From Vicinamibacteraceae bacterium (GTDB taxonomy: Bacteria; Acidobacteriota; Thermoanaerobaculia; Multivoradales; Multivoraceae), in contig JAAXHG010000030.1 in NCBI GenBank assembly GCA_012270995.1, forward strand, positions 79,416 through 143,415: DNA of 64,000 bases, given 5' to 3'. Both the position numbers and the translations under genes were made by a program. Shown in pieces: positions 24,666 to 35,967 of the stretch; position 1 is the first letter of the stretch, and each line of letters starts with the position of its first letter. The notes under the pieces were generated by a model. The model was not told the DNA's origin and did no database searches. It saw only the letters and a list, made by a program, of their open reading frames with translations.

Positions 24666-27014
24666 TTAGCTGTTGACGGCCCGCCACACCTTCTCGGGCG
24701 TGAGCGGCATGTCGATGTGGTCGATACCGAACGGCGCGAGCGCGTCGACCACGGCGTTGACCACCGCGGCCGGCGAGGCGATCGCGCCGGCCTCGCCGAC
24801 GCCCTTGACGCCCAGCGGATTGTGCGGGCACGGGGTCGTCGTGCGGTCGAGCTCGAACGAGATCAGGTTGTGGATCTTGGGCACCGCGTAGTCCATGAGC
24901 GAGCCGGACACGAGTTGGCCGCTCTCGTCGTAGACCGCGTTCTCCCACAGCGCCTGGCCGATGCCCTGGGCCAGACCGCCGTGGAGCTGGCCGTCGACGA
25001 TCATCGGGTTGATCACGTTGCCGACGTCGTCGACCGCGGCGTAGCGCAGCAGTTCGATCGAGCCGGTCTCCGTGTCCACCTCGACGACGCAGACGTGGGT
25101 GCCGAACGGGTAGGTGAAGTTCGACGGATCGTAGAAGCTCGTGGCGGAGAGCCCCGGCTCCAGGTCATCGGGGTAGTTGTGCGCCAGGTAGGCCTGGAGC
25201 GCCACGTCGCCGAGACCGAGGGAGCGGTCCGGCGAACCGGCCACGCGGAAGCTGCCGTCCTCGTACTCCAGGTCCTCGGCCGAGGCCTCGAGCAGGTGGG
25301 CGGCGATCTTCTTGCCTTTCTCGATGATCTTGTCGACGCTCCTGGCGATCGCCGAACCACCGACGGCGGCGCTGCGGCTGCCGTAGGTACCCATGCCGAA
25401 CTGGACGAGGTCGGTGTCGCCGTGGATCACCTCGACCGCCTCGGGATCGATGCCGAGCCGGTCGGCGACGATCTGGGAGAAGGTCGTTTCGTGGCCCTGA
25501 CCGTGCGACGAGGAACCGGTGTAGACGGTGACCGAAGCGGTCGGATGGACGCGGACGTCGGCGCTCTCCCATTGCCCGGCCTGGGCGCCGAGCGATCCGA
25601 CGACGGCTGACGGCGCCAGCCCGCAGGCCTCGATGTAGGACGAGAAGCCGATGCCGATCTGCCGGCCGCCGCCGTTTCCGCGGCGCGACGCCTGCTCGCT
25701 CCGCAGGTCGTCGTATCCGATCATCTCCAGCGCGCGGTCCATCGCCGGTCCGTAGTTGCCCGAGTCGTACGCGAGGGCGACCTGGGTCTGGTACGGGAAG
25801 GCGTCCGGCGACACGAAGTTCCGGCGTCGTACCTCGACCGGACCCAGACCGGTGGTCTCGCCGGCGAGATGCATCAGCCGCTCGACGACGTAGGTGGCCT
25901 CGGGCCGGCCGGCGCCGCGGTAGGCGTCGACGGGGGTCGTGTGGGTGAAGACGCCGGTGACGTGGCAGTGGATCGCCGGAATGTCGTACTGACCGGACAT
26001 CAGGGTGCCGTAGAGGTAGGTCGGCACCGCCGGCGCGAACGTCGAGAGATAGGCGCCCATCGCGGCCGTGGTGTCGACGCGCAGGCCGGTGATCCGGCCG
26101 TCCGCGTCGAGCGCCAACGCGCAGTGGGTCGAGTGGTCGCGGCCGTGGGCATCCGTGAGATTCGTCTCGGTGCGCGTCGCGGTCCACTTGACCGGCCGGT
26201 CGAGCTTCATCGAGCACAGGCCCACGATCGCCTCGTCGGCGTAGTGGTGAATCTTGCTGCCGAAGCCGCCGCCGACCTCGGGAGCGACGATCCGCACCTT
26301 GTGCTCGGGCATGCCAAGCGACGCGAGCGTCATCAGCAGCCGATGCACGTGCGGGTTCTGACTCGTCATGTGGATCGTCATCGAGCCCGCGTTTGAGTCG
26401 TAGGAGGCGAGCACCGCGCGAGGCTCGATCGCGTGCGGGATCAGGCGGTTGTTGCGCAGGTCGAGCTGCACGGTGTGCGCGGCGGAGGCGAAGGCGGCGT
26501 CGACCGATTCGCGCTCGCCGATCTCCCAGTCGAACGCCACGTTGCCCGGCGCGTCCTCGTGGACCGCCGGCGCCCCGTCCTCGAGCGCGGCGACGACATC
26601 GGCCACCGCGTCGAGCGGCTCGTAGTCGACGGCCACCCGGTCGGCCGCGTCGCGGGCGATGTAGCGGTCCTCCGCCACGACGACGGCCACGGCGTCGCCC
26701 ACGTGGCGCACCGTGTCGGCGGCGATCATCGGGTGGGCGGGGGTCTTCAGGTCGGGCAGCAGCCAGCCGACGGGCACGACACCGGGGATGCCGGCGGCCG
26801 CGACGTCGCGCGCCGTGAGCACGGCGAGGACGCCGGGCAGGGCCTCCGCGGCGGAGGCGTCGATGCCGCGGATCCGGGCATGGGCGTAGGGGCTGCGAAC
26901 GATCGCGGCATGAGCCATGCCGGGGACGTTCAGGTCGTCGGTGTACTTGCCGCGGCCGGTGATGAGCGCCGGGTCTTCCCGGCGCTTGATCGAGGTGCCG
27001 AGTACGCCCGCCAT
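24666..27014 (-). CDS. coxL: Form II CO dehydrogenase-like molybdopterin subunit
   Basis: The 782-residue large subunit of a xanthine dehydrogenase-family molybdenum hydroxylase. It opens [18 protein letters not shown] and has the molybdopterin-cytosine-dinucleotide contacts of the family and a C-terminal [12 protein letters not shown] holding the active-site Glu. The active-site loop at 364-370 reads AYRGAGR, the form II signature, not the AYXCSFR of true aerobic CO dehydrogenases (form I). The substrate is therefore uncertain: form II enzymes may act on other aldehydes or N-heterocycles. The coxS stop lies one base before its ATG. Confidence 0.92.
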
Positions 27015-27015
27015 C

Positions 27016-27483
27016 TCAGCTCATCCTCTCGGCGGCGTACTTCACGGCCTCCACGATGTTGTGGTAGCCGGTGCAGCGGCAGATGTTGCCCTTGAGACCC
27101 TCGCGGATCTCCTCGTCGTTCGGGTTCTGGTTCTGGGTCAGGAGGTAGTTCGCCGACAGGATCATGCCCGGCGTGCAGTAACCGCACTGCAGGCCGTGCT
27201 TCTCCCAGAAGCCCTCCTGGAGCGGATGCAGCTCGCCGTTTTGGGCCAGCCCCTCGATCGTCGTCACCGAGGCGCCGTCGGCCTGCGCCGCGAGCATGGT
27301 GCAGGACTTGACGGCATTGCCGTCGACCAGCACGGTGCAGGCGCCGCAGAGACTCGTCTCGCAGCCGATGTTGGCGCCGGTCAGGCCCAGATCCTCGCGC
27401 AGGAAGTGGACCAGCAGGCGCCGCGGCTCGACCGCTGCCTGAACCGGCTTTCCGTTGACTTCGAGTTGAATGGACACGGTCAT
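27016..27483 (-). CDS. coxS: CO dehydrogenase-type 2Fe-2S subunit
   Basis: The 155-residue small subunit has the plant-type 2Fe-2S motif ([15 protein letters not shown], with a further Cys at KSC) and the C-terminal four-helix 2Fe-2S domain with [10 protein letters not shown] and NICRCTGY. It relays electrons from the molybdenum centre of CoxL to the FAD of CoxM. All eight cluster cysteines appear present. The gene has tight spacing to coxL and follows coxG across a gap holding one copy of a 64-bp repeat. Confidence 0.93.
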
Positions 27484-27540
27484 GGCTGGGTGCCTCCTTC
27501 TATGAACTTGTGCAGGGGAACGCAGCGGCGCTGGTTCCGC

Positions 27541-27604
27541 GGTGCGAGGTCATGGTGAGGTGGGGGCTGGGGCCGGACATGGAGCTTGCGACAGGTTGGG
27601 CGGC
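27541..27604 (+). repeat. 64-bp repeat flanking coxG, copy 1
   Basis: This segment contains GGTGAGGTGGGGGCTGGGGC and is matched at 55 of 64 positions, without gaps, by 28298-28361. The two copies lie in the same orientation on either side of coxG. They might be relics of an insertion or a duplicated regulatory segment. Confidence 0.7.
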
Positions 27605-27605
27605 G

Positions 27606-28238
27606 CTATGGGCACGCTCGGAGCGAGATGGCGAGGCCGGCGAGTACGACCAGCGCGCCGCCGACCAGGTAGGGCCAGAGTTCCCTGGCCATGCCGGCGG
27701 CAAAGCGACCGGCGAAGGCGGCCTGGGAAGGGGCCGCCGGGGCGGCTTCGGCGCTGTCCGCGGGGGCCGGCGCCGGAGCTTCGTCCGCCACCGGCGCCCG
27801 CGCGGCGAGTTGCTGCTCCAGGCCCTGCAGTCCCTGGCGGGTCAGCACCTTGGCCGAGCTGTCGAGCAGCCGCTGGCCGACGGCGGCGATGCGCCCGCCG
27901 ACCTGGGCATCGATCTCGTAGTGGAGCAGGGTGCCGTCGTCGCCCAAGTCCTCGAGGCGGAGCGAACCGCTGCCGTTGACGAAGCCGGGCGCGCCCTTGC
28001 CGTCCATCTTCAGGCGGTAGCCGTTCGGCGGATCGAGATCGAGGAGTTCGACGCCGCCCTCGAACACGCCCTGCACGGGCCCGACCTTCATTTTCAGCTT
28101 GCCGCGGAACCGGTTGTCGCCGACGGGCGCCATGTCCTCGCAACCCGGCAGGGTGCGCGACAGCACCTCCGGGTCGAGGATGGCCTCCCAGACGACGCCG
28201 CGCGGTACGTCCAGCGTGTGCGAGCCCTTGATCTTCAC
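27606..28238 (-). CDS. coxG: CoxG-like SRPBCC protein with C-terminal membrane anchor
   Basis: The 210-residue protein has an SRPBCC/START-like domain over residues 1-145, with VWEAILDPEVLSRTLPGCE and FRGKLKMKVGPVQG, both typical of carbon monoxide dehydrogenase subunit G. An Ala/Pro-rich linker and one C-terminal transmembrane helix (YLVGGALVVLAGLAISL) follow. CoxG proteins have been implicated in membrane attachment of Mo-hydroxylases, and the tail fits that. The GTG start at 28238 begins the domain exactly. It is the first gene of the coxGSLM run. Confidence 0.85.
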   Translation of the reverse strand: MKIKGSHTLDVPRGVVWEAILDPEVLSRTLPGCEDMAPVGDNRFRGKLKMKVGPVQGVFEGGVELLDLDPPNGYRLKMDGKGAPGFVNGSGSLRLEDLGDDGTLLHYEIDAQVGGRIAAVGQRLLDSSAKVLTRQGLQGLEQQLAARAPVADEAPAPAPADSAEAAPAAPSQAAFAGRFAAGMARELWPYLVGGALVVLAGLAISLRACP

Positions 28239-32794: not shown

Positions 32795-33850
32795 TTACGC
32801 CCGCACGTAACGAACAGCCGGGTCCTGTTCGGACTCAAGTTCACCGACGTTTTCGGCCACGAGTTCGCCTCTCTGGTAGAGGTACTCCACGTGCGCTCCG
32901 GCCTCTTCCAGGGCGAGCAGCACGGTGTAGCCGCGCACCGCGCCGAACAACCGGCGGCTGATGTCCGCCGTGGTCTGGGGCGCCCGGCAGGTGTCCATGA
33001 TCACGTCCAGCCGTTTGTCGTGGGACGCGCGGATCTCCCCGACCCGCGCCGTCACGTCCTCGATTGGCTCCTCGTGACCGCCGAGACCGACCCGGATGCC
33101 GTCCAGCGTCTCGACTTTCCCCAGCGCATCGAGGTAGTGGCCGAGGCCCATGTTCAGGGTCAGCGACTCGGGCGACTGGTGGGGCGTGATCCGCGCCAGG
33201 ACATGATCGGCGGTCAGCAGGATGTCGTCGACCCTCAGGCAGACCTGGCCGGGGCAGTGGCCGGGGACGTGGATCACTTGGATGTCGAGGTCGCCGCCGT
33301 CGGCGTCGGGAACCGCCCGGCCCTCCTCGAGCAGGAACTGGACCGGCACCGAGCCGTAGCGAGCCTTGGGTGCCGTGTACATCGTCATCAACTGCTCGCG
33401 CTTGCCGGCCGAGAGGCCGGCGCGGTTGAGGAACACGCGAAGCTGCTGCGAGGCGACGACGACCCGCTCCTCGTAGTGGGTCAGCACCCGGCGGTCGAGG
33501 ACGTGGATGCCGACCGGCGCGTCCGTGTGGCTGCGCACGAACTGGAGGCCGCCGAAGTGGTCCATGTGGCCGTGGGTGATCAGGATGACGTCGATGTCGG
33601 CGAGGCTCACGCGGACGCCGAAGCGGTCCTCGATCGAGGCCATGCCGCGCACCAGATTGTCGTTCGAGAAATCCATGCCCGAGCCGCAGTCCACCAGCAC
33701 GCGCCGGGCGCCGTCGTCGATCACGTAGACGTTGCCGAAGAAGTTCGGGAACACCTCCAGGTTCAGGGCGTACACGACCCGCCCCGCGGAGCTCACGAAT
33801 CGCCGCGGCGACTCGAGCTGCTTCTTCGCGTTCGACGTGCCTGCTCGCAT
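32795..33850 (-). CDS. Metallo-beta-lactamase-fold hydrolase
   Basis: The 351-residue protein has the MBL zinc motif THGHMDHFGG near residue 90, a third ligand region HVPGHCPGQV, and TADHVLARITPHQSP with the bridging Asp and a later His. A C-terminal DUF-type helical tail follows (GRVRE-like EIRASHDKR, RAPQTTADISRRLFG), typical of MBL proteins resembling glyoxalase II or hydroxyacyl-type hydrolases. The substrate is unknown. It lies 49 bp downstream of the UGSC selenoprotein gene on the same strand, so both probably share a transcript. Confidence 0.85.
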   Translation of the reverse strand: MRAGTSNAKKQLESPRRFVSSAGRVVYALNLEVFPNFFGNVYVIDDGARRVLVDCGSGMDFSNDNLVRGMASIEDRFGVRVSLADIDVILITHGHMDHFGGLQFVRSHTDAPVGIHVLDRRVLTHYEERVVVASQQLRVFLNRAGLSAGKREQLMTMYTAPKARYGSVPVQFLLEEGRAVPDADGGDLDIQVIHVPGHCPGQVCLRVDDILLTADHVLARITPHQSPESLTLNMGLGHYLDALGKVETLDGIRVGLGGHEEPIEDVTARVGEIRASHDKRLDVIMDTCRAPQTTADISRRLFGAVRGYTVLLALEEAGAHVEYLYQRGELVAENVGELESEQDPAVRYVRA

Positions 33851-33899: not shown

Positions 33900-34415
33900 T
33901 CAGTTGGTCAGGGCGGAGACGAGGGCGTCGACCGCCTGATCGGCGATCTCGCCCATCTCGTGGTCCGTACGGTCCTGGATCGGATGCCGCACGTAGACGA
34001 CCTCCGGCGAGGAGCCGAGCGACTTCGACTGCGACTCGGCCGCGTCCTGGAACTCGCACGAGGCGACGAACACGGACGGCAGCCCCATCTCTTCCAACTG
34101 GGTCGTGTCGTGCACACTGCACGACGTGCAGGACCCTCAGTCGGCCAGCGCTTCGATCACCGCGTCGCAACGCTGGGCGATCTCGGCGCGCAGGTCGGCC
34201 GGCGCCACCTTGGAGAAGGTGGGCTTGGTGAAGCGGAGCACGGACGCGCCGCGGCTTTCGATTCGCTGTTCGACGCGGTCGAGGAAGATGTCGCCGCGTG
34301 CCTTGGAGATGTCGAGCAGGGCGATCGTCTTGCCGTCGATGGCTTCGAGTCGAGGCGCCGCGGTGCGAGCCGGAGGCGCGGCCTCGTTCGTTGGATCGAT
34401 GAGGGTCTGGACCAT
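33900..34415 (-). CDS. UGSC-family selenoprotein (in-frame UGA as Sec93)
   Basis: Reading from ATG 34415 (GAGGAGA before it) gives 92 codons ending VIEALAD, then TGA (34139-34137), then GSCTSCSVHDTTQLEEMGLP in the same frame to a TGA at 33900. The product is 171 residues if UGA is read as selenocysteine. The sequence around it matches UGSC-family (seleno)proteins, where the motif is U-G-S-C-T-S-C or C-G-S-C-T-S-C. Annotated conventionally it would appear as two separate frames, or as one truncated gene. A hairpin right after UGA fits a bacterial SECIS. The redox role is unknown; Sec next to Cys96 suggests a thiol-selenol reaction. It is followed by an MBL protein gene and is divergent from a thioredoxin-like fusion. 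Confidence 0.85.
34107..34139 (-). other. Selenocysteine codon and bacterial SECIS hairpin
   Basis: After the UGA (34139-34137) the RNA can form GUCGUGCA-GUG-UGCACGAC, a perfect 8-bp stem (34125-34118 with 34114-34107) and a GUG triloop 20-22 bases after the UGA. Bacterial SECIS elements lie just downstream of UGA, with a short apical loop that contains an exposed G for SelB, at about this distance. The coding constraint does not by itself require such a perfect stem. Confidence 0.8.
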
Positions 34416-34451
34416 GGGTTTCTCCTCGGTAGGTCCCGAACGATACACGAG

Positions 34452-34509: not shown

Positions 34510-35967
34510 ATGACCGCATCATCCGACGTCGCCGCTCCGGCGCCTCCGGGCTTCGATCAGGGTCTGGTGGCGGTGGTCAAGAAGGACTGTCCGACCTGCC
34601 AGTTGGTCGAGCCCGTGCTGGACGAGGTGCGAAGTCACCGGCCGGTGCTCGTCCTGACCCAGGACGATCCGGCCTTTCCGGCGTCGGGAGATCCCGTTCA
34701 CGACGCGGACCTCGTGCTGTCGCACCGTCTGGGAATAGAGATCGTGCCGACCCTGCTGGTGCGGGACGGTGGCTCGACCACTGCGACAGCGATCGGCTGG
34801 AACCGGGATCAGTGGCAGAAGGTCAGCGGCCTGGATGGCCTGGGAACGGACCTGCCGCCGAGCCGGCTGGGCTGCGGCGCGCTGAACGTCGAGCCGCCGC
34901 ACGTTGAGCGGCTCGCAGCGCTGTTCGCGCGAGGCGGAGCGCGCCGGGTCGAACTCGGCGACCAGGAGGACGACGTCGAAGCCTGCTTCGCTCGCGGCTG
35001 GACGGACGGGCTACCGGTCGTGCCACCGACGCCGGAACGCGTCGAGCGGATGCTCGCGGGCACCCGCCGCGACCGCTCCGAGGCCCTCGGACTCGTGGCG
35101 CCGGACTACGGCGAGTGCACGGTCGAGAAGGTCGCGGTCAACGCGGTGATGGCCGGTTGCCGGCCGGAGTACATGCCGGTGGTCCTCGCCGCCGTCGAGG
35201 CGGCGCTGACCGAGGAGTTCAACTGGCACGGCCTGGCGGCCACGACCTACTTTGCCGGTCCGGTCGTCGTGGTGAACGGCCCGGTGACTTCCGCCATCGC
35301 CATGAATTCGAAGATGAACGTGCTGGGCCAGGGCAACCGGGCCAACACCACGATCGGCCGCGCGCTTCAGCTCGTGCTGCGCAACGTCGGCGGCGCCCGG
35401 CCGGGCGAAGTGGATCGGGCCACGCTCGGCAACCCCGGCAAGCTCGGCTTCTGCTTCGCCGAGCGGGAAGACGACTCGCCCTGGGAGTCGCTGGCGGTGG
35501 AACGCGGCATTCGCGAAGGCAGTTCCGCCGTCACCCTGTTTGCCGGCGAAGGGCCGCGCGGCGTGGTGGACCAGTTGTCCCGGAATCCGGAATCGCTGTG
35601 CCGGTCGCTGGCCGCGGCGCTCTTGAGCGTCGCGAACCAGAAGCTGGTCGTCGGATTCGACGCCATGCTAGTGGTCGGATACGAGCACGGGAACGTGTTC
35701 CGCCGCGCGGGCTGGGACAAGGCCCGGCTGCGCCGGGAGCTCGATGGTCTGCTGGTGCGATCGGGCGCCGACCTCGTGCGTGGCGTCGGTGACTGCGACG
35801 AGGGATTGCCCGAGAGGATGGCCGGCGCCCAGGTGCCGAAGTTCCGTCCCGGCGGGCTGCAACTGGTTCACGCCGGCGGCAACGCGGGCCTGTTCTCCGC
35901 GGTGATCGGCGGTTGGGTGAGCGGTCCGGTCGGCAGCCAGCCGGTCACGCGGGCCGTTGGTGACTGA
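34510..35967 (+). CDS. Thioredoxin-like domain fused to a UGSC-associated C-terminal domain
   Basis: Residues 1-110 look like a thioredoxin/glutaredoxin fold: VAVVKKDCPTCQLVEPVLDEV with a CPTC redox motif (Cys27, Cys30) and a later IVPTLLVRDG cis-Pro segment. Residues ~130-485 form a separate conserved domain, with ARGWTDGLPVVPPTPERVERML, NAVMAGCRPEYMPVVLAAVEA and NSKMNVLGQGNRANTTIGRALQL. I have seen this large domain near UGSC proteins but know no proven function for it. The divergent arrangement with a UGSC selenoprotein suggests the thioredoxin part reduces it; this is inference. ATG 34510 is the first start that gives the thioredoxin fold. Confidence 0.65.
   Translation: MTASSDVAAPAPPGFDQGLVAVVKKDCPTCQLVEPVLDEVRSHRPVLVLTQDDPAFPASGDPVHDADLVLSHRLGIEIVPTLLVRDGGSTTATAIGWNRDQWQKVSGLDGLGTDLPPSRLGCGALNVEPPHVERLAALFARGGARRVELGDQEDDVEACFARGWTDGLPVVPPTPERVERMLAGTRRDRSEALGLVAPDYGECTVEKVAVNAVMAGCRPEYMPVVLAAVEAALTEEFNWHGLAATTYFAGPVVVVNGPVTSAIAMNSKMNVLGQGNRANTTIGRALQLVLRNVGGARPGEVDRATLGNPGKLGFCFAEREDDSPWESLAVERGIREGSSAVTLFAGEGPRGVVDQLSRNPESLCRSLAAALLSVANQKLVVGFDAMLVVGYEHGNVFRRAGWDKARLRRELDGLLVRSGADLVRGVGDCDEGLPERMAGAQVPKFRPGGLQLVHAGGNAGLFSAVIGGWVSGPVGSQPVTRAVGD

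Follow-up and report, generated by a model that had tools for sequence, protein, structure and literature searches.

A predicted selenoprotein of the UGSC family and its thioredoxin-bearing partner in an acidobacterial genome, with a possible likeness to GrdB

The subject here is a short gene in a stretch of 64,000 nucleotides (the window, meaning the whole of the DNA that was analysed) from a Vicinamibacteraceae bacterium placed by GTDB in the Multivoraceae, phylum Acidobacteriota (assembly GCA_012270995.1, contig JAAXHG010000030.1, positions 79,416 to 143,415). The gene lies on the reverse strand, belongs to the UGSC family and carries an in-frame TGA predicted to encode selenocysteine (Sec). 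Its features, and those of the divergent gene referred to below as the partner, are collected in Table 1. The initial annotation described a frame broken only by this TGA and continuing with GSCTSCSV. Re-reading of the frame bears this out: codon 93 is the sole internal stop, GSCTSCSVHD comes next and the terminal stop is another TGA (33902-33900). When U is written as Cys, the NF041046 model (UGSC_fam, cut-off 125) gives 151.5 bits and PF24696 (cut-off 25) gives 145.4 bits. The U-G-S-C motif is present, with TGA at the site. Nothing in the gene itself sets it apart within this known family.

Table 1. Features of the UGSC locus (window coordinates)
Feature	Position	Strand	Evidence or remark
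UGSC family gene, predicted selenoprotein	33900..34415	-	171 codons + stop; NF041046 and PF24696 over cut-off
In-frame TGA, codon 93, predicted selenocysteine	34137..34139	-	TGA in 80/80 related loci; Cys in six database homologues
SECIS-like hairpin, 8 pairs, GUG triloop at 34117-34115	34107..34125	-	fold z -3.22; near-frozen synonymous sites; pair exchange
GAGGAG ahead of the UGSC ATG, likely ribosome-binding site	34422..34427	-	sequence, by eye
Divergent partner gene, 485 amino acids, thioredoxin domain + large domain unnamed in Pfam	34510..35967	+	model pLDDT 87.9; relative beside UGSC in 79/80 loci
CPTC motif of partner thioredoxin domain, residues 27-30	34588..34599	+	
Metallo-beta-lactamase-fold hydrolase gene, downstream neighbour, module membership not claimed	32795..33850	-	PF00753

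What if the TGA were a true stop, or the mark of a decaying gene, with the downstream frame open by chance? At 68% GC a run of 78 stop-free codons after the UGA has a chance of ~0.19, about 1 in 5, and the open frame is therefore weak evidence when taken alone. The matter is decided by conservation instead. The comparison drew on the best 80 of 586 confirmed matches in public bacterial contigs, a set skewed to near relatives. In all 80 loci codon 93 is TGA and the 70 codons past it are free of other stops, so homologues do not all end at this position. The closest (L027-L037) are 91-97% identical to the window gene and come from Acidobacteriota metagenome-assembled genomes, including Thermoanaerobaculia, Holophagales and 'Candidatus Multivorans thiocomprendens'. 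Between the window gene and 11 close loci, synonymous codon changes predominate after codon 93 (81, with 45 others) as they do before it (157, with 81 others). Family models that span the site and the Sec machinery in the genome (see below) also speak against termination or decay, which is left as a very improbable explanation.

The initial annotation placed the TGA exactly where UGSC proteins carry Sec or Cys. The family scores agree, as do six full-length database homologues with Cys at the site (P0002, P0006, P0007, P0008, P0010, P0018); P0003 has Arg and P0004 Trp there, and P0005 and P0012, which do not contain the motif region, were excluded from the alignments. It had also foreseen that an ordinary gene caller would split or truncate the gene. 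Among the 120 database relatives listed, 111 have lengths of 94-119 amino acids and span 51-53% of the query, as expected of gene models cut at the UGA, and P0029 stops at ALAD, the residues just ahead of it. UGSC was found in 24/24 genomes of the same family, the window genome included. These contain 48 matches, of which 44 read through one TGA and four are partial without a TGA. The window genome has a second UGSC gene (L020:9680-10177, C56:42679-43176), 38% identical to the first in alignment, also with a TGA and a similar hairpin.

The hairpin resembles a selenocysteine insertion sequence (SECIS). A perfect 8-bp stem with a GUG triloop had been reported 20-22 bases after the UGA; the 8 pairs and the GUG stand, and that distance is the position of the triloop, not of the stem. 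A 55-nucleotide stretch here folds at -25.7 kcal/mol (z -3.22), a value equalled by 1/200 shuffles. Across the window gene and the 80 outside loci (n=81), synonymous sites of codons 97-103 scarcely vary. Cys99 is TGC, Ser100 AGT and Asp103 GAC in 81/81 each, and Val101 is GTG in 77 of the 78 sequences with Val there; neighbouring Leu, Arg, Gly and Pro codons take four or more forms each. Stem pair 21-33 is G-C in 71/81 and A-U in 10/81, with no half-changed case. Mismatches do occur: A-A at pair 19-35 (19/81), C-C at pair 18-36 (2/81) and C-A at pair 24-30 (1/81). An earlier set of 36 rows hid those at pair 19-35 because its loci had been chosen with the GSCTSC motif, and the 81-row set shows them all. 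No family was matched in an Rfam scan of the window at gathering cut-offs.

The genome can be expected to decode Sec. A search for selA, selB, selC and selD, suggested in the initial annotation, found a tRNA-Sec with anticodon UCA and both selB and selD over cut-off. selA (L021, C189:9090-10366) appears as two pieces, each below cut-off alone, that flank a run of 8 N. This run, an assembly gap or masked stretch, is all that breaks the gene, and there is no visible frameshift. The family models, the conservation of the hairpin, this machinery and the TGA in 80/80 loci together make the window gene a predicted selenoprotein, and the reading of codon 93 as Sec is almost certain for a call made from sequence. 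It is decided by conservation (TGA throughout, no further stop, frozen codons 97-103) and not by the open frame. A further selenoprotein of the same genome is likely encoded at L144 (C131:21676-22050), a short protein of PF07355 (GRDB, PrdB-like) with an in-frame TGA in V-U-P-V-C.

A relative of the partner adjoins UGSC in 79 of those 80 loci. Its large domain spans ~340 residues, and CxTC is invariant in the thioredoxin domain. In a phylum sample of 149 genomes, with up to 10 candidates scored per genome, the large domain was found in the 14 genomes with UGSC over cut-off and, in fragmentary form, in a fifteenth. The hydrolase on the other side is a different case, being next to UGSC in the 11 nearest loci and in 0 of the other 69. 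A lone large domain without thioredoxin also occurs in the window genome, in a 362-codon open frame (L174, C106:100282-101262), and similar lone domains are present in all five sampled sister genomes.

In other bacteria UGSC and the large domain are joined. One genus (g42) is rich in UGSC, with at least 61 matches in all: at least 11 in G060, 10 in G108, at least 21 in G134 and at least 19 in G142. Up to 21 candidates per genome were scored, and the counts for G060, G134 and G142 are lower bounds because they cover only part of the candidates. Of the 61 matches listed, 49 have one TGA and 12 have none; most belong to frames in which UGSC is joined to the large domain, and 51 sit in open frames of 550-700 codons. 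A scan of 20 hand-chosen regions, 15 of them from g42 and covering a portion of the copies, found 23 frames, each 450 residues or longer, that hold UGSC and the partner domain, one of which ends at a contig edge. Fifteen of these carry U, as UGSC, USVC, UDGC, USSC or USQC. A strongly hydrophobic stretch lies near the N-terminus in 15/23 (mean hydropathy at least 1.9 over 14 residues), and two further frames resemble twin-arginine signals by eye. Perhaps many fused forms are exported, to judge from these signal-like N-termini. Database relatives of one fusion, in the 120 of 4952 listed, are mostly pieces of ~405 amino acids covering ~70%; some are named Acidobacteriota and one Desulfobacteraceae.

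What might such a pair do? The initial annotation regarded the family as known and its reaction as not, in agreement with the accessible part of a 2026 review, according to which the reaction is still to be found (PMC13188914). UGSC is also covered, in the parts of the texts available, in PMC7539508, PMC9312934, PMC9402790, PMC5029168 and PMC5330540. The predicted structure of the UGSC protein (mean predicted local distance difference test score, pLDDT, 93.0) alternates five strands and five helices, and places residue 93 after strand 85-91 and at the start of helix 94-109. A possible clue to function comes from glycine reductase protein B (GrdB). A profile of 51 UGSC sequences was compared with one of 8 GRDB-domain sequences and matched with a probability of 88.7% in one run and 87.5% in a second. 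In the 87.5% run the UGSC Sec is aligned on the GrdB Sec codon, and G-[IL]-P and H-P also match further on. Controls were far lower: 3.8% for the reversed profile, at best 8.6% in 200 column shuffles, at best 31% in 200 shuffles that kept the motif block and at best 3.7% against 32 unrelated families. A 33rd control cluster (96.6%) was not counted, as it begins like the N-terminal half of a UGSC fusion and aligns to UGSC residues 3-92. A GrdE-like and a GrdB-like gene were seen elsewhere in the phylum sample (L136, G151:C1:12638-13669 and flanks). The GrdB there has an in-frame TGA and reads TSN-U-ATCSRC. Among the 149 genomes only G151 has PF07355 matches of nearly full length, and UGSC was not seen there.

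The proposal that emerges is a GrdB-like reductase in two parts, UGSC and its partner, that is reduced by thioredoxin and works on a small substrate, with Sec93 as its likely nucleophile. We rate this as evenly balanced between right and wrong. It draws on the family models, the TGA in all 80 loci, the hairpin, the Sec machinery, the adjacency of the partner, the co-occurrence in 14/149 genomes, the fused frames, the invariant CxTC and the profile likeness to GrdB. The large domain of the partner would probably bind and position the substrate. Sec93, predicted at a helix start after the central strand, could then attack it and free a leaving group, to give either a Se-substrate intermediate or a selenide-sulfide formed with Cys96 of the UxxC motif. 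The CPTC thioredoxin domain would re-reduce the site, with Cys96 or CPTC as the resolving residue. Such a scheme would follow the logic of glycine reductase protein B (in part PMC10838667) minus the GrdE partner. Some chosen loci provide circumstances that favour it. A pyridine-nucleotide disulphide oxidoreductase gene is directly upstream of one UGSC gene (L200), and the same contig has CoA-transferase III, MaoC-like and DHDPS-like genes in the intervals that separate its UGSC genes. L201 has a molybdenum hydroxylase near a UGSC fusion, and an arylmalonate decarboxylase lies ~4 kb from UGSC (L219).

Several observations do not sit well with a GrdB-like reductase. The register of the profile match differs between runs, and at 88.7% a gap sets UGSC Cys96, not Sec, on the GrdB Sec. 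The signal also hangs on one sequence: the match is at 86.2% with a single GrdB by itself and at 37.5% with just the seven PrdB-like shorts. PF07355 does not match UGSC at E <= 0.001 or at E <= 5. The partner compares at 0.2% with GrdE and at 0.2% with the GrdB N-terminus, in what is a weak test with single sequences. No relative of solved structure was found, and no clue to a substrate was found within the window. Eight of the 23 fused frames are without U in the domain, and no partner is among the open reading frames (ORFs) listed around the second UGSC gene of the window genome.

The GrdB-like reductase has a serious rival in a simple thiol-redox role. UGSC would then be a thiol-disulfide or peroxide oxidoreductase in which Sec93 and Cys96 relay electrons from the partner thioredoxin to oxidised proteins or peroxides, with the substrate bond left uncleaved. 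This is quite possible, at somewhat short of even confidence. The UxxC motif and the thioredoxin domain in the partner speak for it, and reviews, in the parts accessible, class UGSC with redox proteins and give it a likely thioredoxin-like fold (PMC2398784, PMC13188914). Against it, five strands and five helices alternate in the model, thioredoxin is absent from a limited list of 50 structure entries, and UGSC compares with the partner thioredoxin domain at 0.3%. A large partner domain, and copy numbers of at least 10-21 in the genomes of one genus, suit substrate-specific enzymes better, and some UGSC genes lie near catabolic genes. Alternatively, UGSC might bind or carry a metal or selenium, without redox or bond-cleaving catalysis, and the partner might be its chaperone. 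Against this, the fold match is to a common doubly wound arrangement, some fused copies (UGSCTKFL) and P0018 do not keep the third Cys, and the presence of thioredoxin in the partner suggests a source of electrons. A carrier function is improbable.

A broader claim can be built on the GrdB-like reading. UGSC and the partner domain may be a class of selenoenzyme that has gone unrecognised, a reductase that is related to GrdB, cleaves a bond, has its own thioredoxin and does without GrdE, with 10-21 or more copies per genome in one genus, in many cases apparently exported. This is put forward tentatively, as a possibility that is more doubtful than not. If it were true, a repertoire of substrate-specific selenium enzymes would now be represented in databases by stubs to the left and right of the UGA. 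Because of such stubs, the UGSC protein is overlooked or miscounted in gene catalogues. The conserved partner, the likely built-in reductant and the possible link to an understood selenoenzyme would also make the UGSC reaction testable with two small genes. Elsewhere in the window, a few kb from UGSC, is a set of genes for molybdenum hydroxylase-like large and small subunits together with a CoxG-like gene, named by eye (24666-28238, reverse strand). In 11 related loci there are ORFs that resemble its large subunit.

How does the locus compare with known systems? The gene itself is no different from the UGSC family of NF041046 and PF24696: both models are over cut-off, the U-G-S-C motif is present and Sec or Cys occupies the site. 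The adjacency of the partner is a feature of the locus that is not described in the available portions of the literature examined. In that literature, searched largely outside the subscription journals and supplements, neither a partner gene for UGSC nor a likeness to GrdB is described, bar one fusion. What is new here is the module formed with the partner, the fused forms in many copies, perhaps exported, and the possible link to GrdB. The fusion comes from a Global Ocean Sampling paper, the accessible text of which reports UGSC joined to a domain called Unknown_1 (PMC2398784). As in the frames described above, UGSC is fused there to a conserved domain of unknown function. The text limits Unknown_1 to a few aquatic organisms, whereas the window partner has at least 8000 database homologues. 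That Unknown_1 is the large domain of the partner is a likely assumption. With GrdB (PF07355) and the PrdB-like shorts, UGSC shares a Sec in UxxC after a strand and a profile match of 87-89%. It differs in that it is without the GrdB N-terminal part, fails PF07355 and has a partner that is not GrdE-like in the single-sequence test. The last comparison is with FarB/FarE, a GrdB-like pair tied to fluoroacetate C-F cleavage in the part of PMC10838667 available, in a bacterium for which eight Sec GrdB genes are predicted. FarB and FarE are true GrdB/GrdE homologues of anaerobes, and that part of the text reports no fused thioredoxin. What the UGSC module would have in common with them is a Sec protein working with a second subunit, in several copies per genome with different substrates.
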